Below are positions 19,534 to 62,160 of a stretch of DNA of 64,000 nt, in pieces (within the stretch, counting starts at the first letter, position 1; each line of letters opens with the position of its first letter). The notes beneath the pieces are model-generated. The model saw nothing but the letters and a program-made list of their open reading frames with translations, was not told the DNA's origin and did not search any database. The stretch is from Polycladomyces zharkentensis. GTDB taxonomy: Bacteria > Bacillota > Bacilli > Thermoactinomycetales > JIR-001. The position numbers were made by a program, and so were the translations under genes. Location of the stretch: assembly GCF_016938855.1 (NCBI RefSeq), contig NZ_JAFHAP010000010.1, positions 62,001-126,000 of the forward strand, written 5' to 3'.

Positions 19534-21012
19534 TCAAAACAAAGGCGACTTTCCCTTTCTGTTCGTGAGTAAAGAGAGATACCGTTCCATCACGCGGCAG
19601 AGTGTGGTAAGACCTCGTTCCAAATCGGCCTCCGTTGTCGGTGAAAAACTGATACGCAAATGCCGCCACTGAATCTGATTGGGATCACACGCAGACCCCG
19701 GCAAAAACCGAATGCCGGCTTTTTCTGCCTCCGCCAGCAGTTCGTTGGCATTGGCTCCTTCAGGCAATGACACCCATACGTTAAAACCGCCTTGGGGAAT
19801 CTTCCAAGTTACATTGTCGGGTGCATGCCGTTTCAACAGGCGAAGCGTCAGGTCCCGTCTTTTGCGCAACGTTTCCCGAAGGCGTCGCAGGCTTTCCCGG
19901 ATCGATCCGTTTTCAAACAAGGGAAGGATCACTTTCTGATTGAGCAGGGGATTCCCCAGGTCCGCATTGGTCTTGGCCGCCACCAATCGTTCCAATACCG
20001 GGCCGGTCGCGATTAAAAAACCGATCCTGCATCCAGGGGACAAGATTTTGCCCAGCCCTTTGATATAAATGACATTGCCCGTCTCATCCATCGATTTCAG
20101 ATGCGGCGGAGGCGGTTCATCAAAATGGATTTCGCTCCATGGATCGTCCTCCAGTACCAGGCAATTGACTTCAGACGCGATGGCGATCAATTCCCGCCGC
20201 CGCTTGATGCTCATCACCGAACCCGTCGGATTGTGAAAGGTGGGGATCGTGTAAATCAGTTTGGGTGTGTATCGGTCCAGCAGATTGATTAACTCATCAA
20301 TCCGCATCCCATGTTCGTCCACCGGTACGGACAGCACGGTGGCGCCGCGGCTTCGGAAGGCATCGATGGCGGCCGTGTAAGTGGGTTCTTCGGTGACAAC
20401 CACGTCCTGCGGGCCCACAAAACTCCGCGCCACCAGATCGATGGCCTGTTGCGACCCGTTGGTCACCAAAATTTCATGAGCGGAGACCGTGATCCGTTCC
20501 CCGCTGATGTACCGTGCCAAAGCCTGACGCAACGCGAAATCTCCCTGAATCTCGCCGTATTGCACCAATACGTCCGGTTCCTCCCGGATCAAGCGTCGAA
20601 TGCTGTCTGCCAATGCCTGCGTGGGCAACAGGGAAGGATGTACGACCGATTGGGCAAAATCGATGGAGACTTCACTCTTCTGATACTGCCAGTATTGTGA
20701 GCGATACAAATAGTCCACGACAGGAAACGTTTTCTCTCGTTCTTTCCTCTGATCGGTATTCGCATGTTCTTCATAGACAAACGTTCCTTTGCCTTGGACT
20801 CGGGTGATCAATCCTTCCGCCTCCAACAAATCCAGGGCATGAACCACCGTAACCGGACTTACCTTCAACATCCTGGCCAACTGGCGAACGGAAGGCAACT
20901 TGGCTCCCCGCTCGAGATGGCCGGACAAAATCCGATCGGCAATGGCTTGGTGAATTTGCTGGGCGAGCGGCACTTTGGATTGACGGTTGATGACGAGTTT
21001 CATCGCATCCAC
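19534..21012 (-). CDS. MocR/PdxR-type GntR regulator with aminotransferase domain
   Basis: Transcription factor fusing a GntR winged helix (about 8-80) to an aminotransferase class I-like domain (about 115-480) that senses PLP. The PLP lysine is K322 in KGLGKILSPG. 492 residues. Divergent orientation from pdxS, with two direct repeats in between, is the arrangement known for PdxR controlling vitamin B6 synthesis, so that is my proposed role. Start ATG at 21012; an alternative M4 changes nothing of substance. Confidence 0.88.
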   Translation of the reverse strand: MDAMKLVINRQSKVPLAQQIHQAIADRILSGHLERGAKLPSVRQLARMLKVSPVTVVHALDLLEAEGLITRVQGKGTFVYEEHANTDQRKEREKTFPVVDYLYRSQYWQYQKSEVSIDFAQSVVHPSLLPTQALADSIRRLIREEPDVLVQYGEIQGDFALRQALARYISGERITVSAHEILVTNGSQQAIDLVARSFVGPQDVVVTEEPTYTAAIDAFRSRGATVLSVPVDEHGMRIDELINLLDRYTPKLIYTIPTFHNPTGSVMSIKRRRELIAIASEVNCLVLEDDPWSEIHFDEPPPPHLKSMDETGNVIYIKGLGKILSPGCRIGFLIATGPVLERLVAAKTNADLGNPLLNQKVILPLFENGSIRESLRRLRETLRKRRDLTLRLLKRHAPDNVTWKIPQGGFNVWVSLPEGANANELLAEAEKAGIRFLPGSACDPNQIQWRHLRISFSPTTEADLERGLTTLCRVMERYLSLLTNRKGKSPLF

Positions 21013-21016
21013 TCCA

Positions 21017-21063
21017 ACTGTTACAATCTGATATTGACTGTTACATATGATGATACATAAAAT
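21017..21063 (+). promoter_or_regulatory. pdxS promoter with PdxR-type direct-repeat operator
   Basis: ACTGTTACA occurs twice, at 21017-21025 and 21037-21045, exactly 20 bases apart (two helical turns), the spacing typical of MocR operators. The second copy overlaps the -35 box TTGACT (21034-21039); TAAAAT (21058-21063) follows after 18 bases. Control of both divergent genes is likely. Confidence 0.72.
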
Positions 21064-21101
21064 TCAGCCGAAAGTGGAGAAAAAAAGGGGGAACCATCAT
21101 C

Positions 21102-21992
21102 ATGAGTCAACATCAAACCGGTACGGACCGTGTCAAACGCGGCATGGCCGAAATGCAAAAAGGCGGCGTCATCATGGATGTCGTCAATGCCGAACAGGCC
21201 AAAATCGCGGAAGCCGCCGGCGCGGTGGCCGTCATGGCGCTGGAGCGCGTCCCGGCAGATATTCGGGCCGCGGGCGGCGTGGCGCGGATGGCGGACCCGA
21301 CCGTCATCGAAGAAGTGATGAACGCGGTGAGCATTCCGGTCATGGCCAAAGCGCGCATCGGACACTTCGTGGAGGCACGTCTGTTGGAAGCGTTGGGCGT
21401 GGACTACATCGACGAGAGTGAAGTGCTCACGCCGGCCGACGATCGTTTTCACATCGACAAAACCCAATTTACCGTGCCATTCGTCTGCGGAGCGCGGGAT
21501 TTGGGCGAAGCGCTGCGCCGGATCGGTGAAGGTGCTTCGATGATCCGGACCAAAGGGGAACCCGGCACCGGCAATATTGTCGAAGCCGTCCGTCATATGC
21601 GGATGATGCAGAGCCAGATCCGCAAGGTGCAATCGATGTCCCGCGATGAGCTGATGGCGGAAGCCAAACAGCTGGGGGCGCCGTATGAGCTGTTGCTGCA
21701 AGTGCACGAAACCGGGCGCCTGCCGGTCGTCAACTTCGCGGCGGGTGGTGTGGCAACACCGGCGGACGCGGCGTTGATGATGCACTTGGGTGCAGACGGC
21801 GTCTTTGTCGGATCGGGGATTTTCAAATCGGAGAATCCGGAAAAATATGCGCGTGCGATCGTGGAAGCGACGACGCACTACGAAGATTTCGAGCTGATCG
21901 CCCATCTGTCCAAAGGATTGGGCGGCGCGATGCCGGGGATCGAGATCGACCGTTTGGAACCGGCGGCCCGGATGCAGGATCGGGGATGGTAA
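21102..21992 (+). CDS. pdxS: Pyridoxal 5'-phosphate synthase, PdxS subunit
   Basis: Makes PLP from ribose 5-phosphate, glyceraldehyde 3-phosphate and ammonia. 296 residues; catalytic lysines K83 (MAKARIGH) and K151 ([10 protein letters not shown]) are present, together with D26. Normally paired with the glutaminase PdxT that supplies ammonia, but pdxT does not follow: a terminator comes six bases after the stop. PdxT must be elsewhere or free ammonia is used. Confidence 0.97.
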
Positions 21993-21997
21993 AAAGC

Positions 21998-22030
21998 AAA
22001 GGCCCGTTTCCCTTGTGGAAACGGGCCTTT
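21998..22030. terminator. Bidirectional terminator between pdxS and the Sco1 gene
   Basis: A perfect 14-bp stem (21998-22011 with 22017-22030) with a five-base loop. The flanks are richer in T on the reverse strand, so it should serve the convergent Sco1 gene as well. Confidence 0.88.
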
Positions 22031-22038
22031 GTCATCCA

Positions 22039-22686
22039 TTATTTCTGAAGTTGCCGAATGTCATTGACGATGGTTTTCTCGTCCGGGCGGAGACCGTCAT
22101 AGATTTTCATCACCTTGCCATCAGGGCCGATCAGATAGAAACGGGCCGTATGGCTGACCATCACCATGCCGTTGGTTTCAGACTTCATCAGTTCCTGTTT
22201 GAACGCCGATTGGGCGAATTTGCGGATCTCGTCATCCGTGTAGCCGGTCAGAAAATGCCAGTTGTCCAACTCGGCCCCGTGTTCCTTTGCAAATGCGCGC
22301 AGCTTTTCCGGTTTGTCGTACGACGGATCGACACTGAACGAAACGATGTCCGCCTTCAATCCCGCTTGATCCAGCGCCTTTTGAATGCGCGCCATATTGG
22401 AAGTCATCGGTGGACAAATATCCGGACATCGCGTGAAAATCAAGTTGGCCAACCACACTTTTCCTTTCAGCTGCGACAAACCGAAAGCTTGTCCGTTCTG
22501 GTCCGTATACCGGAATTCCGGCACCCGCCAGTTCAGTTGGGATACATCATTGGACTGGTTGTTGGTACGGGCACTTGGGGTCGACGGAGACGGCTCCACA
22601 GGCGCCGCCTGGCCGCATGCCGTCATTACAAGGCACAGCAGAAAAACGGCGATCCCCCAACACCCTTTTCGTCTGTTCACCGACAT
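22039..22686 (-). CDS. SCO1/SenC family copper chaperone lipoprotein
   Basis: Extracytoplasmic thioredoxin-fold protein that delivers copper to the CuA site of cytochrome oxidase. Lipobox LVMTAC places the lipid-modified cysteine at residue 24; the copper ligands are C87 and C91 (CPDIC) and H179 (SHTARFYL). 215 residues. Downstream neighbour of a YtkA-like lipoprotein gene (24-base gap), a frequent pairing. YpmQ of B. subtilis is of this type. Confidence 0.93.
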   Translation of the reverse strand: MSVNRRKGCWGIAVFLLCLVMTACGQAAPVEPSPSTPSARTNNQSNDVSQLNWRVPEFRYTDQNGQAFGLSQLKGKVWLANLIFTRCPDICPPMTSNMARIQKALDQAGLKADIVSFSVDPSYDKPEKLRAFAKEHGAELDNWHFLTGYTDDEIRKFAQSAFKQELMKSETNGMVMVSHTARFYLIGPDGKVMKIYDGLRPDEKTIVNDIRQLQK

Positions 22687-22710
22687 GAATTACACCCGCC
22701 TTTCGACGCG

Positions 22711-23151
22711 TCACTGCCGTACTTCCAACTTTTGTGCATTCATGACGTGACTCCCGTTGGCCGTCACATGATACATCACCTGATACGCTCCCGGTTGCTC
22801 CAAACGAACGGCGGCCGTATAGACACCGTTTCCGGTCCGCTTGGTCCCGATCATACGGTGAGGCGACCCGGGACGCGACGCATTCCACACTTCCACCTGC
22901 ACCCGATCCGCATCGTTTACCGGCTGTTTGTCCACTGTCACCAGTACGTGAATGCGGATGGACTCACCGGTTTTGGGTGTGGCAGGTGAAAATGAAAGGG
23001 ACACTTCCGGCATGGAAAGTGAAACGGTTGTCTTCTTTTTCGAAGCCGACTCCCGGGGATGTCGATGTTCATCCGCCCCGGTGCAACCGCCCAGAATCAC
23101 CCACACACTCAACAGCAGGACGGTCAACGCGATTCCGCCCATTTTCCTCAT
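22711..23151 (-). CDS. YtkA/FixH-like lipoprotein
   Basis: 146-residue exported protein with lipobox ILGGC (C23) and an immunoglobulin-like YtkA domain (about 45-145: VSLSFSPATPKTGESIRIHV through GAYQVMYHVTANG). Family members are found next to copper and cytochrome-oxidase genes; the His/Met-containing surface could bind copper, but that is inference. Ribosome site GGGAGTG precedes the ATG. Confidence 0.82.
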   Translation of the reverse strand: MRKMGGIALTVLLLSVWVILGGCTGADEHRHPRESASKKKTTVSLSMPEVSLSFSPATPKTGESIRIHVLVTVDKQPVNDADRVQVEVWNASRPGSPHRMIGTKRTGNGVYTAAVRLEQPGAYQVMYHVTANGSHVMNAQKLEVRQ

Positions 23152-23292
23152 ACGTTCACACTCCCAAATTGACCATACAACAGTTTAACCATACCATATT
23201 TTCCCCTTTTGCAAAAATGGTGAGAATGTGAACGGTCATGAAAAAAACCCCTTTCAAGGCCTGTTGACAAAATCCTGCCGGTTCCCATTCTC

Positions 23293-23544
23293 TTGATCTC
23301 ACCCTGGCATCAGCCTGTGTCGCTCGACCGGAAAATCCGACCTGCTTCCAAATCGCAAGGGTTTCAAGCGGGGACTCTTCCATTGGCTGGACATGTTCAC
23401 GGTCACTTTTTTACGAACATTCCCGCGGAGGAAAGACCGGCACTTTACCGACACATCGCGGAACGCCTGCAAAACGACCTTTGGGTTGACGGCCAATGGA
23501 TCGCCGATTACAAACGGTTACAAGTCGTCGCAATCAAAGCGTGA
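23293..23544 (+). pseudogene. Possible C-terminal remnant of a methyltransferase-like gene
   Basis: In a 600-base stretch without an intact gene, the end of this frame reads like protein: NIPAEERPALYRHIAERL, then WIADYKRLQVVAIKA and stop. WTADYxRLxxxAxK-like endings occur in class I SAM-dependent methyltransferases, so a decayed member is possible. No ribosome site, and the first 30 codons look random. Weak call. Confidence 0.3.
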
Positions 23545-23659
23545 CGAGTGGGACGGTTCGGGTATACCGGTTGAATCCGGTTTGTACCCGACAGCCAATC
23601 AGGAGTGTATAGGCTACAATTGCCTGCTGCTGGCCAGCGAAGCCACTGAAAGAGGGTGG

Positions 23660-23708
23660 CCGTTTTCCCGCCCGGAACCTTTAAAGTCAAGAGCGGGAGG
23701 GAAAACGG
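23660..23708. repeat. Imperfect inverted repeat downstream of the nickel permease gene
   Basis: Arms 23660-23674 and 23693-23708 pair over about 15 bp with one internal mismatch (CCGTTTTCCC against GGGAAAACGG at the base). There is no T-run, so a role as 3' stabiliser or terminator for the urease operon is uncertain. Confidence 0.45.
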
Positions 23709-23753
23709 TACACCCGGAACCGTGAAGCGACAGACAGAGGCGGCGGTGTGGTC

Positions 23754-24386
23754 TCAGATCCACATCCGCCACAATCCTTCCGATACGGCTGTACTGTACA
23801 TGTAATAAAGACCGTAGACGGTGCTCAATACCGCCGCCGCCTGGGTCAACACGCCATGAATCATCCGATTGCGGGACGTCATGACAAAGGGGATGCCGAT
23901 ACATGTGGAAAAGGTAAACATCCCCACCACGGTTCCCATGCCGAAGATCAGGATATACAGTGCTCCTTCCACGACCGTTTTCACGGTGGTCATCGTCAGC
24001 AACACCATCGCCGCACTCCCGGAAAGCCCATGAACAAACCCGACCAACAGCGATTTTTCATAAGATGCTCGCGGGGTATGAACGGGCCGGTATGAACGCA
24101 TACCGGACCATCCCAGGTAAACCAGCATGATCCCCACCACAAACTCCAGCGACAATGCCCATTTTTCGGAAATCTGACCTTTTAACACAAGCAAGATCAT
24201 CCCGACCAGGAACAAGGTTGCCGTGTGCCCGATCCCCCAGCAGATCCCTGCCAACGAGGAACGGTACCACCTATTGCTCCGACTCGCGATCGTGGTGACC
24301 GCCACGACATGATCCGGCTCGAATGCATGCTTGATTCCCATCAAAAACCCCAAAAACAATGTGGACCATAACCCATGTGCCATCAT
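23754..24386 (-). CDS. ureH: Nickel permease, UreH type
   Basis: Membrane protein expected to import nickel for urease. About 210 residues with six or so helices; the nickel-transporter signature HAFEPDHV (H20, D25, H26) is present, a variant of the HX4DH motif of NiCoT carriers, and a second His-containing helix FVHGLSGSAA follows. Last gene of the urease operon, 17 bases after ureD, as in thermophilic Bacillus urease clusters. Start chosen at the double ATG (24386/24383). Confidence 0.88.
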   Translation of the reverse strand: MMAHGLWSTLFLGFLMGIKHAFEPDHVVAVTTIASRSNRWYRSSLAGICWGIGHTATLFLVGMILLVLKGQISEKWALSLEFVVGIMLVYLGWSGMRSYRPVHTPRASYEKSLLVGFVHGLSGSAAMVLLTMTTVKTVVEGALYILIFGMGTVVGMFTFSTCIGIPFVMTSRNRMIHGVLTQAAAVLSTVYGLYYMYSTAVSEGLWRMWI

Positions 24387-24402
24387 ACCACAATCCCTTT
24401 TT

Positions 24403-25221
24403 TCAATATTTGCGCAAAAACACCGTTGTTGCGCCCCACCTGTTCTCCCGCAGGATGCCGCGGCAGAGATCGAAAATCGATTCCACATCCTGCGTGCGTT
24501 GGGCCAATACACGGAGAGCCAACCCCGGAACCATCAGCAGGGACAACCCGATTTTCACTTCGGAGAACGGCTCAAGCAGTCGATGAATGCGATCGATAAA
24601 ACTGTCGTCGATTCCTTCCTGAATGACAACCAACGAACCAAGGTGCGTAAACCCCTCCATATACCCTAGGCCCGGCATATCCCGATCCGGTTCCAACTTC
24701 ACATGATCAAACAAGACAAGCTGATCCTCCATGTACACGTCCATCCGGGATTGCAGCAAATCATAGCGAAACCGGGAACCGTCCGGAGCCCAGCCGGGTG
24801 TTAACACCTCAGTACAAACCAACGATGCCCCCGGCTCCATCCGTACGATGGTCCGCTGCGCGAAACGCGCATGCGGATACGCGATGACAGGGTCCGGAAC
24901 ATACTCCAGGAAACTTCCTTTCTTCAGATTCAACTCTGTTTCCTGCAAAACCGGCCGCCGAGGGGTTTTGTAAACTTTGGTGGAAGATTGCGTCGTGAGA
25001 AGCACTTCCGCTCCCGCTTCCAGAAAGACCTCCATCCGGTAGGAATCGCCGCCCAGATATCCGCCTCCGGGATTCATGAGATAGACGCACGCTTGACCGG
25101 TTTCGTCCAGATAGACCGGTTTCGTGATTTTGAGCGCCCCTTCAAAGTAGGCATCCCTCAACACACTTCTCTCTCCCTTTTGGGAAAATACCGCCCGCAA
25201 ATAACCCGTCCAGCTTCCCAT
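24403..25221 (-). CDS. ureD: Urease accessory protein UreD
   Basis: Scaffold protein of the UreDFG complex that loads nickel into apo-urease. 272 residues from the ATG at 25221; typical motifs include LMNPGGGYLGGDSY and LLTTQSSTKVYK. The start lies next to the ureG stop codon. An upstream frame to 25275 overlaps ureG and is not needed. Confidence 0.93.
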   Translation of the reverse strand: MGSWTGYLRAVFSQKGERSVLRDAYFEGALKITKPVYLDETGQACVYLMNPGGGYLGGDSYRMEVFLEAGAEVLLTTQSSTKVYKTPRRPVLQETELNLKKGSFLEYVPDPVIAYPHARFAQRTIVRMEPGASLVCTEVLTPGWAPDGSRFRYDLLQSRMDVYMEDQLVLFDHVKLEPDRDMPGLGYMEGFTHLGSLVVIQEGIDDSFIDRIHRLLEPFSEVKIGLSLLMVPGLALRVLAQRTQDVESIFDLCRGILRENRWGATTVFLRKY

Positions 25222-25222
25222 C

Positions 25223-25834
25223 TCAATCCATTCCCGCCAAAAGCGCGTTCTTCTTGATCCAATCGACCACTTCATCCAAACCGATATCTTCTTTCAAATT
25301 GGTGAATATGAACGGTTTGTCGCCGCGGGCTACCCGGGTATCTGCCGCCATTACCTCGAGACGGGCACCTACATGGGGAGCCAGGTCGATCTTGTTGATG
25401 ATGAACAAATCGGATTTGATCATTCCCTGTCCGCCTTTGCGCGGGATTTTCTCTCCCTGGGCCACATCGATGATATAAATGGAGAAATGGACCAGCTCGG
25501 GGCTGAAAGTGGCCGCCAGATTGTCTCCCCCACTCTCCACAAAAATCAAATCCAGGTCCGGGTGTCTGGACATCAATTCATCAATCGCCGCAAAATTCAT
25601 CGAGGCGTCTTCGCGTATGGCAGTATGCGGACATCCGCCCGTCTCCACCCCGATGATCCGGTCCGCAGACAGGACGCTGTTTTTGATCAAAAACGCTGCA
25701 TCTTCTTTGGTATAAATATCGTTGGTCACCACGGCGATGCTGTATTCTTCGTGCATATGTCTCGTCAATCGCTCCACCAGCATGGTTTTTCCGGCTCCCA
25801 CCGGACCGCCGATTCCGATGCGGATCGGTTCCAT
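25223..25834 (-). CDS. ureG: Urease accessory GTPase UreG
   Basis: SIMIBI-class GTPase that powers nickel delivery. 203 residues; P-loop GPVGAGKT at 10-17, the metal-binding CPH motif in [13 protein letters not shown], and the NKIDLAP base-recognition motif. Good ribosome site AAAGGAGG. Confidence 0.97.
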
Positions 25835-25854
25835 TCGTTTTCAACCTCCTTTTG

Positions 25855-26556
25855 TCATGACATGAAGAGGCGCACATGCAGGCGTTCGTGCCGCATTTGC
25901 GCAATCTCCAATCCCGGAGAAACGGCTCCGAGATCCTCCGGCTGCAACTGTTGGATCTTTTCCGCCGCTTGGATCAGATGTGGTTGCAGCTCAAGCAGGA
26001 GACGCTGTCCGTCGGTTTGCCCCAACGGAATGCCGCGTACCCCGTTTTGAACCAACGTTGACATGCTCGTATACAAAAAGGACAAGACCCCCTCTTTTTT
26101 CGGGATTTGCAGATGGTGGGCGATGATTGTAAACACCACAGCCGGATGTCCGAATGATTGTTTGGCGAGAATTTTTTCCCGATATGCCATAAGCAGCGGC
26201 AGGGAAAACAGATCGATTCCCAACCGGATCATCCGCTCCCCCATCCGCCGCCCCGCTTCCCGGGATTCCCGCGGCAGATTTTGCGCAGTCATCACCCGAT
26301 CCAACCGCCAAAGCTCCTCAATCCGATCTTGTTCGATCGCTTCATAGGCAAGGCGGCAAGCCAATCCGTCGGCATAAACCAATTGTTTGTCCAAATATGC
26401 CCGCAACCAACAGGCAAACGTTTCCTTGTCTTTCACCCGTCCGTCCTGGATGTACGTTTCCATCCCGAAAGAGTGGGAAAAAGCGCCCGAAGGAAAGTTG
26501 GAATCGCAAAACTGCAATAATGACAACAGACGATTACCCGTGATGGTGGCCGACAT
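25855..26556 (-). CDS. ureF: Urease accessory protein UreF
   Basis: All-helical partner of UreD that acts as checkpoint for UreG GTP hydrolysis. 233 residues; [20 protein letters not shown] near the start is the family hallmark. Its beginning overlaps the end of ureE by 23 bases. Confidence 0.95.
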
Positions 26557-26980
26557 GCCGAAACGCCTGCCTTACTTTCCTCTTCTCCCTTTCATACGGG
26601 ATATCCAACTGTTGCAGTAATTCCTCCACCAATCGGTCGTATTGAACCAGCATTACCTCCCCTTCAAATTGGGCCGGCAGGTGGCGATTGCCCAGTTGGT
26701 GCGCGATTTCCCCCATTTGCTTCAGATTGCGGGGGCGGATGACCAGCAAATCATCTTCCAACACACTTACCACGATCGCTTTTCGTTCATCCAGATACAA
26801 AATATCGCCGTCGGTCAATTCTTTCGCTTCCTTCAAACGAATCCCGATTTCCTTGCCGTGGTCCGTGATCACCCGTTGAATGCGTTTGACCAAGTCGTCA
26901 CTTGGCATATATACCGTTTCCACATGCCGATCGCCGATATCGTACTGACTCACATTTCCCACGATTCGCTCGATAATCAA
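26534..26980 (-). CDS. ureE: Urease nickel metallochaperone UreE
   Basis: Carries nickel to the UreDFG complex. I use the TTG start at 26980 (ribosome site GGGGAGAG), which gives 148 residues beginning with the usual IIERIVGNV segment and lies 11 bases after ureC. A short His-rich tail, HVGHHHG, binds metal. The longer frame to 27052 would overlap ureC by 60 bases and begins with unrelated residues. Confidence 0.9.
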
Positions 26981-26991
26981 TTCTCTCCCCC

Positions 26992-28704
26992 CTAAAACAA
27001 AAAGTAACGCTGTGCCATCGGTACCACATCCACCGGATCGCAGGTGATGCACTCACCGTCCACCTTCACTTCATAGGTTTGCGGGTCTACGTCAATTTGC
27101 GGTGTCTCCGAATTGAACACCATGTCTTTCTTGGTCAATTGCCGAGTTCCGCGGACGGGTTTGATCCGTTTTTTCAGGCCCAACTTTTCATGAACGCCCC
27201 GTTCGATCGCCGCTTGCGACAAAAACGTGATCGAGGTGGCATGTTTCGCTTTCCCGAATGACGCAAACATCGGCCGGTACAATACCGGTTGCGGCGTCGG
27301 GATGGAGGCGTTGGGGTCCCCCATCAGACTGTGAACGATCATCCCGCCTTTGATCACCATTTCCGGCTTTACGCCGAAAAATGCCGGGTCCCAAATCACC
27401 AGATCCGCCATTTTCCCCACTTCCACCGAACCGACTTCGTCGGCGATGCCGTGGGTGATGGCCGGATTGATCGTATATTTGGCGATGTAACGTTTCACAC
27501 GGTAATTGTCGCCTATTCCTGTGTCTTGGGGCAGCTTTCCTCTCTGTTTTTTCATCTTGTCCGCCGTTTGCCAGGTACGGGTGATCACCTCCCCGACACG
27601 TCCCATGGCTTGGGAATCGGAGCTAATCATGCTGAATACGCCCAGATCGTGCAGGATATCTTCGGCCGCAATCGTCTCCTTGCGGATGCGCGAATCGGCA
27701 AAGGCGATATCCTCCGGGACATCAGGGTCGAGATGATGGCACACCATCAACATGTCGAGATGCTCGTCCAGCGTATTTTTTGTAAACGGCCGGGTCGGAT
27801 TGGTGGACGACGGCAAGATATGGGGATAACCGGCCACTTTGATGATATCGGGAGCATGTCCGCCTCCCGTCCCTTCGGTGTGGTAGGTGTGAATGACCCG
27901 GCCATCGATGGCCGCCAACGTATCCTCCACAAATCCTCCCTCATTCAACGTATCCGTGTGAATAGCCACCTGCACGTCGAACCGATCAGCCACCCTTAGA
28001 CAATGATCGATGGCTGAGGCAGTCGTTCCCCAATCTTCATGGAGTTTGAGGCCGACCGCTCCGGCGAGGATCTGCTCCACCAACGGCTCCTCCGCCGATG
28101 CGTTGCCTTTCCCCAGAAATCCCAGATTCACCGGGAAAGCTTCTGCCGCCTCCAACATCCGATGAAGGTTCCACGCACCCGGAGTGCATGTGGTCGCATT
28201 GGTTCCCGTGGCAGGGCCGGTCCCTCCCCCAATCATCGTTGTCACGCCTGAGGCGAGCGCCGTTTCGATCTGCTGGGGACAGATATAATGGATATGGGTA
28301 TCCACCCCACCCGCCGTCACAATCATCCCCTCGGCGGCAATAATCTCTGTCGTTGCCCCGATGATGATGTCCACTCCATCCATCAACAGGGGGTTTCCAC
28401 TTTTGCCGATCCCCGCAATCCGCCCGTCACGAATCCCGATATCCGCTTTATAGATGCCGGTGTAATCGACAATCACCGCATTGGTGATGACGACATCCAT
28501 CGCCCCGTCAGTACGGGTGATGAACGGATGCTGTCCCATCCCGTCGCGAATCACCTTGCCTCCGCCGAATTTGACTTCATCGCCATAGATGGTATGATCT
28601 TTTTCAATTTCGATAAACAAATCCGTATCAGCCAAACGGATGGCATCCCCGACAGTCGGGCCGAACATGTCCGCATACTGCTTTCTCGACATCCGCAAAC
28701 TCAT
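26992..28704 (-). CDS. ureC: Urease alpha subunit
   Basis: Catalytic subunit hydrolysing urea to ammonia and carbamate. 570 residues. All nickel-site residues are visible: H137 and H139 (DTHIHY), carbamylated K220 ([10 protein letters not shown]), H249, H275, and the mobile-flap C322-H323 (VCHHLD). Start overlaps the ureB stop by 4 bases. Confidence 0.98.
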
Positions 28705-29081
28705 CGTTGGATTTTCCTTTCCATATTGGAGTGTGCCTGAATGTCTTGACCGGACAAGACCCGGCGCTTCAACTTGTCGAGCGGTCCGTTGGTTCGGTTG
28801 TTCAAACCGTACACTTCCCGTGTACCGGAAAACGGGACCAGCTCCACTTCTTTGGCGTCACCGGGTTCAAAACGGACCGCTGTCCCCGCCGGAATGTTGA
28901 GATGCATGCCGAACGTCAGCGCACGGTCAAATTCCAGTGCATGATTCACTTCGTAGAAATGAAAATGGGAACCGACCTGTACAGGACGGTCTCCTCTGTT
29001 GAGCACAGAAATTTTTACCGTTGGTTTCCCCTGATTGCAGATGATGTCATCCTTTTTCAGCAGCAGTTCACCTGGAATCAA
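28701..29081 (-). CDS. ureB: Urease beta subunit
   Basis: Structural subunit, 126 residues, with the conserved [11 protein letters not shown] and [14 protein letters not shown] segments. TTG start at 29081, preceded by AAAGGTGG. It is separated from ureA by 168 bases, unusually far for a urease operon; the spacer has no convincing gene. Confidence 0.96.
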
Positions 29082-29249
29082 AGCACGGTCACCACCTTTT
29101 GTATCCTCTGATCATTCCGCTTTATCAGAACATGTATGATCCGTCATGCATGTAACCACTGTTTCGAATCGATCTCAGTCTGGATCAGTCGCCCGCTTGA
29201 AATAAACGTTGCCCGTGTTGAAATGACCATGGAAATGACCATACACCAC

Positions 29250-29552
29250 CTACCGAATCGGTTCATGTACGGTTACCAGTTTTGTTCCGTCGGGAAACGT
29301 GGCCTCCACCTGAATTTCCCGAATCATTTCGGGGACGCCCTCCATCACGTCTTCCCGCGTCAAAATTTTCGCCCCCACGCTCATCAACTCCGCCACTGAT
29401 TTCCCATCCCGTGCACCTTCCATGATCTCGTATGTAATCAGTGCGACCGCCTCCGGATAATTCAATTTCAATCCACGTTCTTTTCGTCTTCTCGCCAAGT
29501 CGGCTGCAACCACGATCAACAATTTTTCCTGTTCACGTGATGTCAGCTTCAT
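29250..29552 (-). CDS. ureA: Urease gamma subunit
   Basis: 100-residue structural subunit ([13 protein letters not shown] at the start, [18 protein letters not shown] near the end). Start at 29552 with a GGAGG ribosome site; first gene of ureABCEFGD-ureH. Confidence 0.97.
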
Positions 29553-29624
29553 CCATCGGTCCTCCTTCACAAAATGACTCCTTCCCAAAAAAGGAGGAGA
29601 TCATCATGCTTCTCTTTGCATTCT

Positions 29625-29641
29625 TGTAAACAAAACTGACA
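29625..29641. promoter_or_regulatory. GlnR/TnrA binding site between ureA and the urea symporter gene
   Basis: TGTAA, seven bases, TGACA: a full match to the nitrogen-control box TGTNAN7TNACA. It lies 73 bases before the ureA start on one side and 48 bases before the symporter start on the other. In Bacillus, TnrA activates and GlnR represses urease through such sites. Paired -10 elements on either side are weak, so the direction of control is not settled. Confidence 0.8.
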
Positions 29642-29688
29642 TATGATAATGTAAATATACCAAATATACCACGAGGAGGGCAACTATA

Positions 29689-31224
29689 TTGACACCAATT
29701 GTGGGGTATCTGGTTCTCATTGTGTTTGGCGTCGGATTTACTGTTATCACCGCTGTTCTGCACCGCATGGCTATGAAACGTCACGGAAATGAAATGACAG
29801 CGGAGCGTTTCAATACTGCCGGCAGAAGTGTGGGTGTCGGACTGGCCAGCGCCTCCATCGTGGCTGCTTGGACCTGGGCGGCCACCATTATGATGTCGTC
29901 TTCAACGGGCTACCAGTATGGAATCAGTGGGCCTTACTGGTATGCAGCAGGAGCCACTATCCAAATATTGTTATTCGCAATTATCGCAATACATTTAAAA
30001 CAAAAAGCACCACAAGCGCATACGTTCTTGGAATTCATCGCCCAACGATTTGACAAAAAAAATCATCGGCTGATGCTGGGATTTGCATTGATGACGAACA
30101 TCATCGTCACATCGATGATCATTCTTGGCGGAGCGATTACATTGAACCAACTGACGGGGATGAACCTGTACCTGGCCGCATTTCTGATCCCCCTGAGCTT
30201 TACGATCTATACGATGATCGGCGGATTGAAAGCCTCGTTCATCGCAGACTATCTGCACACCGTCATTTTATTTATCGTGCTGGCCGTATTGGGCGTAGCG
30301 ATCTATACCAAGTTCGGCATCACCCCCATATACGAGGGATTGCGCCACCTTCCGGAATCGAAGCAGATGCTGACCATGGCTTCCATCCCCGGGCTGATGT
30401 TCGGTGTGATCAACATCGTCGGTAACTTCGGCACCGTTTTTGTCGACCAAGCTTACTGGCAAAGAGCGATTGCCAGCACTGATCGGGCCGCTTCCAAGGC
30501 TTTCATTTACGGAGGTCTCGCCTGGTTCTCCATTCCATTCGCCGTCGCCACCATTCTGGGGGTGAGCGCGGCCGGACTGGGGATCGCCGTACCGACACCG
30601 GATTCCGTGGCTCCCATCATGGCTTCCCATGCATTGGGCACGGTCGGTTCGGTCCTGTTCCTCATCATGCTGTTCATGGCCGTTACGTCGGCGGGATCGG
30701 CGGAACTCACCGCAGTAACCAATATTCTGGTGACAGATGTTTACCGCCATTCCATCAACCCCGACGCGGACAGTAAAACCCTGCTCCGGGTATCCCGTTG
30801 GATCACGCTTGGTTTCGGAATCGCGATGAGCATCTTTTCCATTTTGCTCTTTTATCTGGGCATCAGTCTGGGATTTGTGTATATGGCGATGGGCATATTC
30901 GTCAGTTCGGCGGTCATCCCGGTGGCACTCGGTTTGATGTGGAAACGGACGACCAATGAAGGGGCCTTTTACGGAACGTTGCTCGGTATGATCGGGGGGA
31001 TTGTGATTTGGCTCTTTTCCGCATATCAACTCACCGGTCTTATCAATGTTGATTCCCTGGGCCAACTGTATCCCATGCTTTTCGGGAACCTTGCTGTTTT
31101 CATCGTCAGCGGCATCATCACCATCGGTCACAGCCTGACATCATCCACCGAATTTCAGTTTGAATCGTTGAAAGGCAAATTTAAGAGCTTTGACGAAGTT
31201 GCGGAACGGGAGGAAACGGCATGA
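29689..31224 (+). CDS. Urea/sodium symporter, SSS family (DUR3-like)
   Basis: Polytopic solute:sodium symporter, 511 residues with about 13 hydrophobic helices. Family features include TAGRSVGVGLASASIVAAWTW near the start and FVDQAYWQRAIAS in the middle. The divergent position from urease with a shared nitrogen-control box argues for urea as substrate. TTG start at 29689 after GAGGAGGG. Allantoin or another amide is the alternative. Confidence 0.85.
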   Translation: MTPIVGYLVLIVFGVGFTVITAVLHRMAMKRHGNEMTAERFNTAGRSVGVGLASASIVAAWTWAATIMMSSSTGYQYGISGPYWYAAGATIQILLFAIIAIHLKQKAPQAHTFLEFIAQRFDKKNHRLMLGFALMTNIIVTSMIILGGAITLNQLTGMNLYLAAFLIPLSFTIYTMIGGLKASFIADYLHTVILFIVLAVLGVAIYTKFGITPIYEGLRHLPESKQMLTMASIPGLMFGVINIVGNFGTVFVDQAYWQRAIASTDRAASKAFIYGGLAWFSIPFAVATILGVSAAGLGIAVPTPDSVAPIMASHALGTVGSVLFLIMLFMAVTSAGSAELTAVTNILVTDVYRHSINPDADSKTLLRVSRWITLGFGIAMSIFSILLFYLGISLGFVYMAMGIFVSSAVIPVALGLMWKRTTNEGAFYGTLLGMIGGIVIWLFSAYQLTGLINVDSLGQLYPMLFGNLAVFIVSGIITIGHSLTSSTEFQFESLKGKFKSFDEVAEREETA

Positions 31225-31451
31225 AAGATCAACGGTTGGCGAAGGAAACCCGATTGTACACACGTTGGGCGACCGGATTGAGTTTGGTGTTGATCGTGAT
31301 CTGGCCGGGTATCATGTTTGCGACCGGTTACGTCTACAGCTTGTCCTTTTTCAAAGCGTGGGTGGCGTTGGCGTTCGGATGGATGATCGCGGCCGCCGTC
31401 TTTATCACGATTCGCCCCCTGATTGAATTGTACAGGGAGTACAAAAGGTGA
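31221..31451 (+). CDS. Small membrane partner of the symporter
   Basis: 76 residues with two membrane helices (about 16-37 and 46-66) and charged ends. Its ATG overlaps the symporter stop codon (ATGA), so the two are translationally coupled. Small two-helix proteins accompany several SSS and related carriers; no known name is offered. Confidence 0.75.
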   Translation: MKDQRLAKETRLYTRWATGLSLVLIVIWPGIMFATGYVYSLSFFKAWVALAFGWMIAAAVFITIRPLIELYREYKR

Positions 31452-31584
31452 GCACACCGGCCACCCTGGCTCAGGCCAAGAAGCCTCACGGTCTGAGCAG
31501 GGAACCGGTTTCAAGCACCCTCTGTGTGAATTTCGGGTGCTTTCGCGATGCTGGTTCCCATCCACCATATCATTTGTGTCCTTC

Positions 31585-31620
31585 CCCCGAACGGACTGAT
31601 CACCGTTCGGGGACATATTT
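31585..31620 (+). terminator. Terminator between the symporter operon and the yezG-like pseudogene
   Basis: Perfect 10-bp stem (31585... with ...31612) around an eight-base loop; ATATTTT follows on the plus strand. A similar but eroded sequence follows the second yezG fragment near 49.0 kb. Confidence 0.7.
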
Positions 31621-31623
31621 TCA

Positions 31624-32138
31624 TCAATCGCTTTCATCCACGGCATCCTTCAAATATTCTTCCAAAATCCGCTTCCCAAGGTTACTCTTCGGAACAAGCC
31701 CAAGATATTTATATCTCCAAATTACCATTCTGTCATAATGATCCGTTTTGGATAAATCCTCGTAACCATATTCGACCTGAAACTTCCCCGAATGATCAAA
31801 GACCATCATGAACGTGGTCCACGGCTCATGACCGCTTTGTTGAAACTCATTCCACAAGTTTTTAATCTGATCATAGAATTGATCCACCCGTTTTTCGAAC
31901 TCTTCCTCGTCCACTTGGAACAACTCGGGAATATCAAAAATTTGCACGGGTTCTTCATTTGATAGTAAAAATAGTTACTTTGTACACCATCCATTCGTTC
32001 TCCATATACATATACCTTCGTCCATTCCTCCGGGATCATTTCCATCACCGTTTGGGCGATTGATTGATACATACTGTCCAGTTTTGCATGATCCATCCGA
32101 TTAACCCCCGCAACATTTTCAAATGTTTCAGTGTCCAT
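31624..32138 (-). pseudogene. Frameshifted YezG-family immunity protein gene
   Basis: Two overlapping frames make up one protein. The first (from 32138) gives KLDSMYQSIAQTVMEMIPEEW and VYVYGERMDGVQSNYFYY; the second (ending 31624) continues with QIFDIPELFQVDEEEFEKRV, EPWTTFMMVFDHSGKFQVEY and VIWRYKYLGLVP. Together they match the DUF600/YezG antitoxin family, which neutralises LXG-type nuclease toxins. The frame changes near 31960, consistent with loss of one base. No toxin gene is adjacent. AT-rich compared with its neighbours. Confidence 0.78.
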
Positions 32139-32219
32139 ACACGTTCACCTGTCTGATACCCTACTTCCGTCTTGTTGTGAATCTCCTTGTATGCTTCGGT
32201 TCTTAACGAAACGGTCAGC

Positions 32220-32332
32220 GTGACTTGCCCCACACCTGAAGCACCAGAGGCACTCCTTGGTCGACATGGGCTTCTCGTTCGTCCGGCGTGGCAACCCATG
32301 GCTGAGTTTTCCCGCTCGCTCTTTATAAAAAG
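32220..32332 (-). repeat. IS605-type right-end relic, copy A (solo)
   Basis: Reverse strand carries the element-family core AAGGAGTGCCTCTGGTGCTT followed by GTGTGGGGCAAGTCAC, as in copies B and C, preceded by GTTGCCACGCCGG and by GAGCGGGAAAAC. No coding part remains. It directly follows the terminator of the decayed aldo/keto reductase gene. The 20 bases after the presumed end (32219 downward) would be guide position if this still acted as an omegaRNA. Confidence 0.5.
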
Positions 32333-32358
32333 AGACCCCGCGCGAACCGAACGGGGTC
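32328..32358 (-). terminator. Terminator of the aldo/keto reductase pseudogene
   Basis: Reverse strand: GACCCCG (32358-32352) pairs with CGGGGTC (32340-32334), followed by TCTTTTT. Confidence 0.75.
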
Positions 32359-32370
32359 CGTTTTGTCTTC

Positions 32371-33033
32371 TCACGCTTTCCCTGCTTGGGGATGATCGTC
32401 ACTCACCCAATCGGCGGTTTTGGCGTTGGAAATCACATTCTCCACATCTTTGCAGCCCGGGATGACACAGGTCACTGCCGGATGTTTCAGACACCATGCA
32501 AGTGCCCACTGTGCTATCCCCATCTCTTCGGGCACTTCATTGTGCCGAACTTCCTCCACCATTTGGGTATTTTTGTCATTTCTTCTTGTAACCGGTTGCG
32601 GACATCATTTTGCCGAAATACCACACCCAGTCGATAGTTGTCGCTCAAAAGCCCGCTGACCGGCGGCACCCGTGAAAGTACACCAAGACCTTGCCATTAC
32701 CAGGAAGGAAATACCCGTTCTTCCGGTTTTCTGCACGTCCTCCGGCGACAATGATGGGTCTGGTTCATATGACCATGGAACTGATGACCGAATTTGATCG
32801 CTATCATCCCATCCTGTCTTTCCCGTTGGATTGATTTCCCGATGAAAGATTCGGACAAATGATCGCCGTAGCATTCAGCCGTGTCGATCAGGTTGATCCC
32901 CTTTTCTTGCCGTGGCCAAAATCCGGTCGACTTCAACCTGGGTAAACGACTTGCCCCACTCACCGTCGAATTGCCGAGTCCCTACGCCAATAACCGACAT
33001 GTTCAATCCAGTTTTTCTGTCTGCGGTATTCAT
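32371..33033 (-). pseudogene. Aldo/keto reductase pseudogene
   Basis: Starts with a good ribosome site (GAGGAGTG) and MNTADRKTGLNMSVIGVGTR, then jumps frame to GINLIDTAECYGDHLSESFIG (catalytic Asp and Tyr of the family), jumps again, and ends with EEMGIAQWALAWCLKHPAV and VIPGCKDVENVISNA. At least two frameshifts and a shortened middle make it non-functional. Family members are about 310-330 residues. Confidence 0.85.
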
Positions 33034-33104
33034 CCCAATCACTCCTCGTCCGGTGCATTCAGTTTCCGGAATAACGATTATTTCAAACATTTTGTCAATA
33101 ATTG

Positions 33105-33138
33105 AAAGCAAAACCCAGCCATTACTGGGTTTTGCTTT
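33105..33138. terminator. Terminator of murC
   Basis: Perfect 14-bp stem (33105-33118 with 33125-33138), six-base loop; the reverse strand ends in TTTTGCTTT. It lies 18 bases beyond the murC stop. Confidence 0.85.
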
Positions 33139-61509: not shown

Positions 61510-62160
61510 CTATTCCAACACCACCAATTCGTGTTGGATCGCATAGATAATCGCTTGGGAACGGCTTTTGACCCCCAGCTTTTTCAGGATGTTGCTGACA
61601 TGAATCTTCACGGTTTTGTCACTGATGAACAATTGTTCCGCTATTTCTTTGTTGCTGTGCCCTTTGACCATCAATTGCAACACATCCAATTCCCGAGGGG
61701 TGAGATTCTCGTCGGAGCTGCCCCGTTCGCCTCTTTTTTCTCCGGTCAAATTATCCAGCAGTTTACGCGCCATCACCGGGTGGAGTGTCGACTCGCCACG
61801 GGACGCGGAGCGGATTGCCGCGATCACATCCCCCGACGGTGCATCTTTGAGCAGATAGCCCGTGGCACCGGCTCGGATTGATTCATAGAGATACTCGTCC
61901 CGATCATACATGGTCAATACAATGATGGCGATCCCGGGATGCTGGGCGTGAATGCGGCGAATCGCTTCCACCCCGTTCATGCCCGGCATATTGATATCCA
62001 TCAGGATCACGTCGGGATGAACTTGTTCCACCAACTGCAATGCTTCGATGCCGCTCTTGGCCTCTCCCACCACTTCCATGTCATCTTCCAAACTGATAAT
62101 ATTGGACAAGCCGTCACGCAAAACGGCATGATCATCCACGAGTAATACGCGAATAGACAT
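61510..62160 (-). CDS. NarL/LuxR-type response regulator
   Basis: 216 residues: receiver domain with acidic pocket D9-D10 and phosphoacceptor D55 (ILMDINMPG), and a LuxR helix-turn-helix (about 150-210, LTPRELDVLQLMVKGHSNKEIA). Its start overlaps the kinase gene by 29 bases, so the two are co-translated. Targets are unknown; similar to LiaR/DegU-like regulators in layout. Confidence 0.95.
   Translation of the reverse strand: MSIRVLLVDDHAVLRDGLSNIISLEDDMEVVGEAKSGIEALQLVEQVHPDVILMDINMPGMNGVEAIRRIHAQHPGIAIIVLTMYDRDEYLYESIRAGATGYLLKDAPSGDVIAAIRSASRGESTLHPVMARKLLDNLTGEKRGERGSSDENLTPRELDVLQLMVKGHSNKEIAEQLFISDKTVKIHVSNILKKLGVKSRSQAIIYAIQHELVVLE

Follow-up and report, generated by a model that had tools for sequence, protein, structure and literature searches.

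A conserved candidate GlnR operator between divergent urease and DUR3-type urea symporter genes of Polycladomyces zharkentensis

A urease cluster and a solute symporter gene diverge from one short spacer in Polycladomyces zharkentensis. Does a single nitrogen-control site in this spacer govern both urea import and urea hydrolysis, and if so, through which regulator and with which sign? The analysis covers the window, a stretch of 64,000 nucleotides (positions 62,001 to 126,000 of contig NZ_JAFHAP010000010.1). A first-pass annotation of this DNA had placed a GlnR/TnrA box in the spacer and had taken it as support for urea as the transported solute.

The divergent urease and symporter genes

Matches to NCBIfam and Pfam profiles give the order ureABCEFGD followed by a ureH-like gene, all on the minus strand. 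The urease subunits are encoded by ureA (gamma, 29250..29552; NF009712, 178.1 bits, cut-off 123), ureB (beta, 28701..29081; NF009682, 162.7 bits, cut-off 129) and ureC (alpha, 26992..28704; TIGR01792, 1019.9 bits, cut-off 680). The start of ureE (26534..26980; NF009755, 237.7 bits, cut-off 223; PF02814, PF05194) was taken from the NCBIfam model alignment, the ORF as listed beginning at 27052. It is followed by ureF (25855..26556; PF01730, 155.4 bits; no NCBIfam match), ureG (25223..25834; TIGR00101, 334.1 bits) and ureD (24403..25275; PF01774, 187.2 bits; no NCBIfam match). The ureH-like permease ORF, as listed, spans 23754..24512. It passes the cut-off of the NicO profile PF03824 narrowly (29.1 bits, cut-off 27.7), reaches 29.3 bits against DsbD_2 (cut-off 24.9) and scores far under the cut-off in NCBIfam; its substrate is probably nickel. 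The sole Rfam match within 20000-33000 was to 5_ureB_sRNA, an RNA that has a role in Helicobacter, at 28260-28549 on the plus strand (109.4 bits), antisense to ureC. This match probably reflects conserved coding sequence rather than an RNA.

On the other side of the spacer, a gene of the SSS family (29689..31224, plus strand, TTG start) matches PF00474 and scores above the cut-off of TIGR00813 sss. Comparison with PDB entries placed its product with the plant DUR3 chains 9vim (E 2.2e-128), 9j7c and 9x5u (range 2.2e-128 to 8.2e-123), with the next SSS members far behind at E 1.9e-11 or weaker. The accessible text of PMC9783183 describes ten positions of Aspergillus UreA with a demonstrated or suggested importance for urea. 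All ten are kept in the window protein (W82, W84, Y106, A110, T133, N275, N279, T282, D286 and Y289 in A. nidulans numbering), as placed by motif spacing without an alignment to UreA; Y388 and Y437 were not mapped. In an alignment of 39 symporter rows, T282 is alanine in 13 rows, and the other nine positions vary by gaps only, in one or two short rows. Judged by the PDB chain matches and the conserved urea-related residues, the protein is a DUR3-type symporter.

Two other regions of the window deserve mention. At 19534-21992, a GntR/aminotransferase (MocR-type) regulator gene is divergent from a pdxS-like gene, which has no adjoining pdxT; a SNO-family gene is found at G000:C2:114754-115302 of this genome. 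A YezG-like immunity protein gene on the minus strand (31624-32138) is matched from profile position 52 on, and an overlapping upstream ORF in another frame resembles, by eye, the front part of this protein.

The box and its conservation across symporter loci

The spacer between ureA and the symporter gene is 136 bp long (29553-29688, 38% GC), bounded by the ureA ATG (29552-29550, minus strand) and the symporter TTG (29689, plus strand). The divergent setting claimed for the box at first annotation is thus confirmed, with both the ure cluster and the DUR3-type symporter in place. The candidate operator TGTAAACAAAACTGACA (29625..29641, no strand assigned) agrees with TGTNAN7TNACA (TGTNA-N7-TNACA) at 8 of 8 specified bases, and the earlier reading of TGTAA-N7-TGACA as a fit to the nitrogen-control consensus at each specified base holds with zero mismatches. 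PMC4475385 cites a longer TnrA consensus, TGTNANAWWWTNTNACA, which the site does not match, as positions 7 and 11 differ; this mismatch bears on TnrA, a protein not found in this genome. The chance of a perfect match in this spacer is 0.0039 by shuffling and 0.0019 by a first-order Markov model. No second perfect site occurs in the spacer, the sole further site (29650) having two mismatches. In the sister genome G016 the box reads TGTCAACAAAACTTACA, with two base changes relative to the window, both on N positions.

The decisive evidence for the box is its recurrence at other predicted symporter genes. The comparison covered 39 loci, namely 37 relatives found by scanning named genomes for the symporter, the window and G016, with none left out of the box count. 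A perfect box lies within 300 bp upstream of the symporter in 35 of these 39 loci, which are related and hence not independent tests, compared with about 0.4 expected (0.43 from shuffles; 0.38 from Markov sequences, with a maximum of 3 in 300 runs). Upstream distances refer to the point where the protein match begins; at many loci this point is a few codons within the gene. The reversed pattern was found at 1 of 39 loci. The box pattern itself was found at 0 of 39 loci inside the symporter gene and at 2 of 39 between 300 and 600 bp upstream (L032 and L033), where the ureA-side boxes of these two loci fall. The four loci without a perfect box comprise L029 and L034, each with a site one mismatch away, L061, with two one-mismatch sites, and L060, from a Scalindua MAG, which has no box even when one mismatch is allowed. 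Of 40 genomes searched at E 1e-10, that of L060 alone gave no GlnR/TnrA match. The symporter frames of L059 and L062 are interrupted in the deposited genomes, by sequencing error or real loss, and both loci are kept in the box count.

The ure genes take several positions relative to the symporter. UreA is encoded divergently from the symporter in 5 of the 39 loci, the window and G016 among them, and downstream on the same strand in 14; the ureD or ureG end lies near the symporter in 5, and no ure gene was found in the flank examined in 15. UreC is encoded in 36 of the 37 relatives' genomes (in two pieces in G073), and the sole genome without it is the Scalindua MAG, in which pieces of ureD and ureG adjoin the symporter. 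A separate perfect box, whose start lies 39-42 bp upstream, precedes ureA at the divergent loci outside the genus (L028, L032 and L033). At the 14 same-strand loci, the 300 bp before ureA contain no perfect box. The distance from the box to the ureA ATG is 72 bp in the window and 27 bp in G016, and the ure promoter of G016 must therefore overlap the box or lie beyond it.

About 45 bp of the window spacer (approximately 29567-29612) are missing in G016. On the plus strand, it includes a sequence resembling a ribosome-binding site and a reading frame of 7 codons with its stop inside the box; on the minus strand, it contains a terminator-like stem, which does not exceed what shuffles produce. Folding of the ureA leader (29541-29647, minus strand) gave a z of -2.62, with 1 of 200 shuffles as good, and pairs the box with the ureA start region. 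An RNA switch in this leader was considered and rejected, as by eye a pairing base is changed and the 45-bp piece is missing in G016.

Within the order to which the window's genome belongs, the symporter is present in 2 of 42 genomes (the window's own and G016), and the same two have UreC, for which reason a gain of the block inside the genus was considered. In G015, a genome of the same genus, the corresponding murC-like and SCO1-like flanking genes enclose ureH and a 3' portion of ureD, and no other ure or dur3 match was found (L127, G015:C1:1045700-1049700, compared with window 24781-33107). This remnant between the same flanks is most likely a deletion scar, indicating that, most likely, the genus ancestor carried the block and G015 lost it; a gain inside the genus is thus unlikely. 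In the symporter tree, built from 37 of the 39 rows without the interrupted L059 and L062 frames, the window protein groups with Fictibacillus L028 and Bacillus L030, with support of only 86/71.

The regulator and the predicted sign of control

Nitrogen control of the kind first annotated presupposes a glnR or tnrA homologue, and one GlnR-type protein is encoded at G000:C8:140464-140850, directly upstream of glnA. By eye, the protein has RxxRY in the reading helix. Its tail, IQGELSRFFH, contains XG(E/D)XSRF, described in the accessible text of PMC9249791 as the GlnR C-tail motif that binds feedback-inhibited glutamine synthetase (GS), and its IQGELSRF is identical to the P. polymyxa GlnR peptide seen bound to GS in the same source. 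No TnrA or close GlnR paralogue was found in the genome (assembly completeness 99.79%). The next match is a 264-aa MerR protein at only E 8e-8, so TnrA appears absent and the regulator should be GlnR alone. The GlnR gene and the conserved box thus sustain the proposed nitrogen switch over the urea genes, narrowed from GlnR/TnrA to GlnR. Further perfect boxes in this genome lie before glnRA and two ammonium transporter (amt) genes; other AT-rich matches examined lie near genes without an evident nitrogen role, such as those for an EamA permease and an M50 peptidase. Among the 37 relatives' genomes, 30 have at least two GlnR/TnrA-like matches, 6 have one short match and 1 has none. The six are the genomes of L043, L045, L047, L051, L055 and L061, each with one short match at 36-41% identity, as if they had TnrA but no GlnR, with assembly gaps possible.

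The sign of control was assessed from consensus guesses of the promoters. The promoter predicted for dur3 (29624..29652, plus strand) reads TTGTAA-17-TAATGT, its second hexamer preceded by TG. It has 7 of 12 consensus bases, too weak for the list of a stricter scan, and its G016 counterpart is TTGTCA-17-TAATGT. In the window, the box covers the -35 and spacer of this promoter, with the centre at about -27. For ure, the guessed promoter TTGCCC-18-TATATT, also with TG (29654..29683, minus strand), would place the box centre at about +15, and the two guessed promoters overlap. An alternative guess for ure, TTTACA-16-CATGAT (29603..29630, minus strand), has its -35 within the box, and its -10 falls in the stretch missing from G016. 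The stricter scan gave two promoter-like sites, both on the ure side, compared with 0.8 in shuffles. Positions of about -27 for dur3 and about +15 for ure are repressor positions, so the predicted placement of the box suggests repression rather than activation. Control on the ureA side, too, is a prediction.

A simple promoter scan, with the best two guesses per locus, gave for 18 of the 35 boxed loci a box centred between -53 and -49 relative to a predicted start, compared with 2.6 in shuffles (maximum 8 in 500 runs). TnrA activates from a position close to this. Other layouts were found in the Gracilibacillus loci (-39 as the best guess) and in L033 (+8 and +30). The other boxes of the present genome lie at -49 of the predicted start for glnRA and at -53 and -52 for the amt genes, the former accompanied by a further box at +21; as this genome lacks a detectable TnrA, there is no simple link between box position and TnrA. 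By eye, L028 and L030 share the skeleton box-ACATNTGNTAAT with the window. In each of the two, another box lies 22 bp further upstream, the nearer box of L028 having one mismatch, and an upstream second box of this kind is missing in the window and in G016. We infer that an activator site may have been lost in the TnrA-less lineage while the repressor site was kept; the boxes at -49 to -53 before amt and glnRA here indicate that such positions persist without TnrA.

Several other readings of the locus have to be weighed against repression of both genes. The box pattern is loose, and a search of the whole genome gave 39 perfect matches compared with 32 for the reversed-pattern control, most of them as chance gives; the two matches in the 64-kb window are nothing unusual either (0.58 expected, at least two in 14 of 100 shuffles). 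Genome-wide counting is thus uninformative as a test. Against the recurrence at 35 of 39 loci, however, a chance match is hardly credible. It is unlikely, though conceivable, that the GlnR site controls dur3 only, with ure under its own promoter or other control and the shared spacer incidental. The box does accompany the symporter wherever ure is, also at loci without a ure gene in the flank, and ureA at the same-strand loci lacks a perfect box of its own. The short distance from the box to ureA in the window and G016 argues against this view, as does the separate box of ureA at the three other divergent loci.

Activation by GlnR from the box at low nitrogen, like that by TnrA in B. subtilis, would agree with the -53 to -49 layout of about half the boxed loci, with the boxes at both amt genes of this genome and with the ability of P. 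polymyxa GlnR to activate, as described in the accessible part of PMC6191146. However, the window box is placed over the predicted dur3 promoter, at about -27, and none is found near -51, which makes activation here quite improbable. As to the solute, transport of another small nitrogen compound could be argued from the many different compounds that SSS members carry and from the 15 of the 39 loci without a ure gene in the flank examined. Such a solute is very improbable given the distance between the plant DUR3 chains and the next SSS members (E 2e-128 vs. 2e-11), the ten UreA positions kept in the window protein and the presence of UreC in nearly all the relatives. Urea as the solute, for which the first-pass annotation had cited the box, appears much better supported by the DUR3 match, the conserved residues and the co-occurrence with urease than by the box.

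A proposed repression mechanism and its relation to known systems

We propose, with a probability of roughly 0.8, that the 17-bp site is a GlnR operator at which one dimer represses the divergent dur3 and ure genes at plentiful nitrogen. The GS/GlnR part of this mechanism is taken from the literature on relatives. At plentiful nitrogen, glutamine-inhibited glutamine synthetase would capture the C-tail of GlnR, and GlnR thereby freed would bind the operator as a dimer. One dimer would block the two overlapping divergent promoters, on the dur3 side by covering the -35 and spacer and on the ure side from a position shortly past the start. At nitrogen shortage, GlnR would release the operator, and DUR3-type import and urea hydrolysis (UreABC, the accessory proteins and the probable nickel permease) would be made together. 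In this scheme, we infer GlnR binding at the site, the promoter positions, the sign of control and the effect on ureA.

The switch looks to be of a known kind, with parts of known kinds and only the arrangement new. YodF of B. subtilis, which we take to be an SSS permease, may be related to the window symporter, and orthology between the two would reduce the novelty. The yodF gene is TnrA-regulated according to the accessible part of PMC4475385. In the accessible parts of the sources on B. subtilis, ureABC is repressed by GlnR (PMC4475385, PMC5569456, PMC3412718), and its P3 promoter puts urease under GlnR/TnrA (PMC4475385, PMC5569456). However, P3 lies 839 bp upstream of ureA (PMC4475385), whereas only 72 bp separate the site from ureA in the window, in a spacer common to the divergent symporter. 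The glnRA operators of B. subtilis have the same 17-bp dyad, and one B. subtilis site overlaps the -35 (PMC6191146, in part), as predicted here. Regulation of glnRA there involves two cooperating sites and both GlnR and TnrA, whereas the window has one perfect site and TnrA was not found. Predicted GlnR-ureABC associations in Bacilli include B. amyloliquefaciens, B. megaterium, B. pseudofirmus, B. subtilis and Paenibacillus JDR2 (PMC3412718); unlike in the window, no DUR3-type symporter was found alongside them in the accessible part of that source. P. polymyxa, as described in accessible parts of PMC6191146 and PMC9948412, has GlnR without tnrA and represses nif from a GlnR site just past the start (site II, 24 bp downstream; PMC6191146). 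The nif genes also have an upstream activating site, whereas the spacer of the window has no second perfect site.

The symporter likewise has known counterparts. Plant, fungal and ammonia-oxidizing archaeal DUR3/UreA symporters are like the window's in sequence and urea-related residues, and dur3 and ureC are found together in ammonia-oxidizing archaea (accessible part of PMC12686405). The window protein differs from the plant DUR3 chains (704-773 aa) in being bacterial and 511 aa long. A urea transporter gene of S. xylosus is numbered beside ure and co-induced with it, the accessible part of that report naming neither its family nor GlnR. Among the papers listed, a literature search covering few subscription journals found no report of GlnR/TnrA control of a DUR3-type symporter.

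If the proposed repression is true, one operator would shut off both overlapping divergent promoters in a TnrA-less host. More tentatively, and at somewhat less than even odds, the DUR3-type symporters of Bacilli may be a standing and hitherto unreported part of the GlnR/TnrA regulon in which the operator has shifted from one lineage to another, with an activator position at -51 in many hosts that have TnrA and repressor positions at -27/+15 in a TnrA-less host, the same box changing the sign of control. The layouts with a box at -51, with two boxes and with one box over the core promoter provide a natural series for studying how nitrogen control is maintained at a promoter without TnrA. Ureolytic Bacilli are relevant to fertilizer loss and biocementation. 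For this bacterial group of SSS genes, the comparison gives good grounds for annotation as nitrogen-controlled urea symporters.
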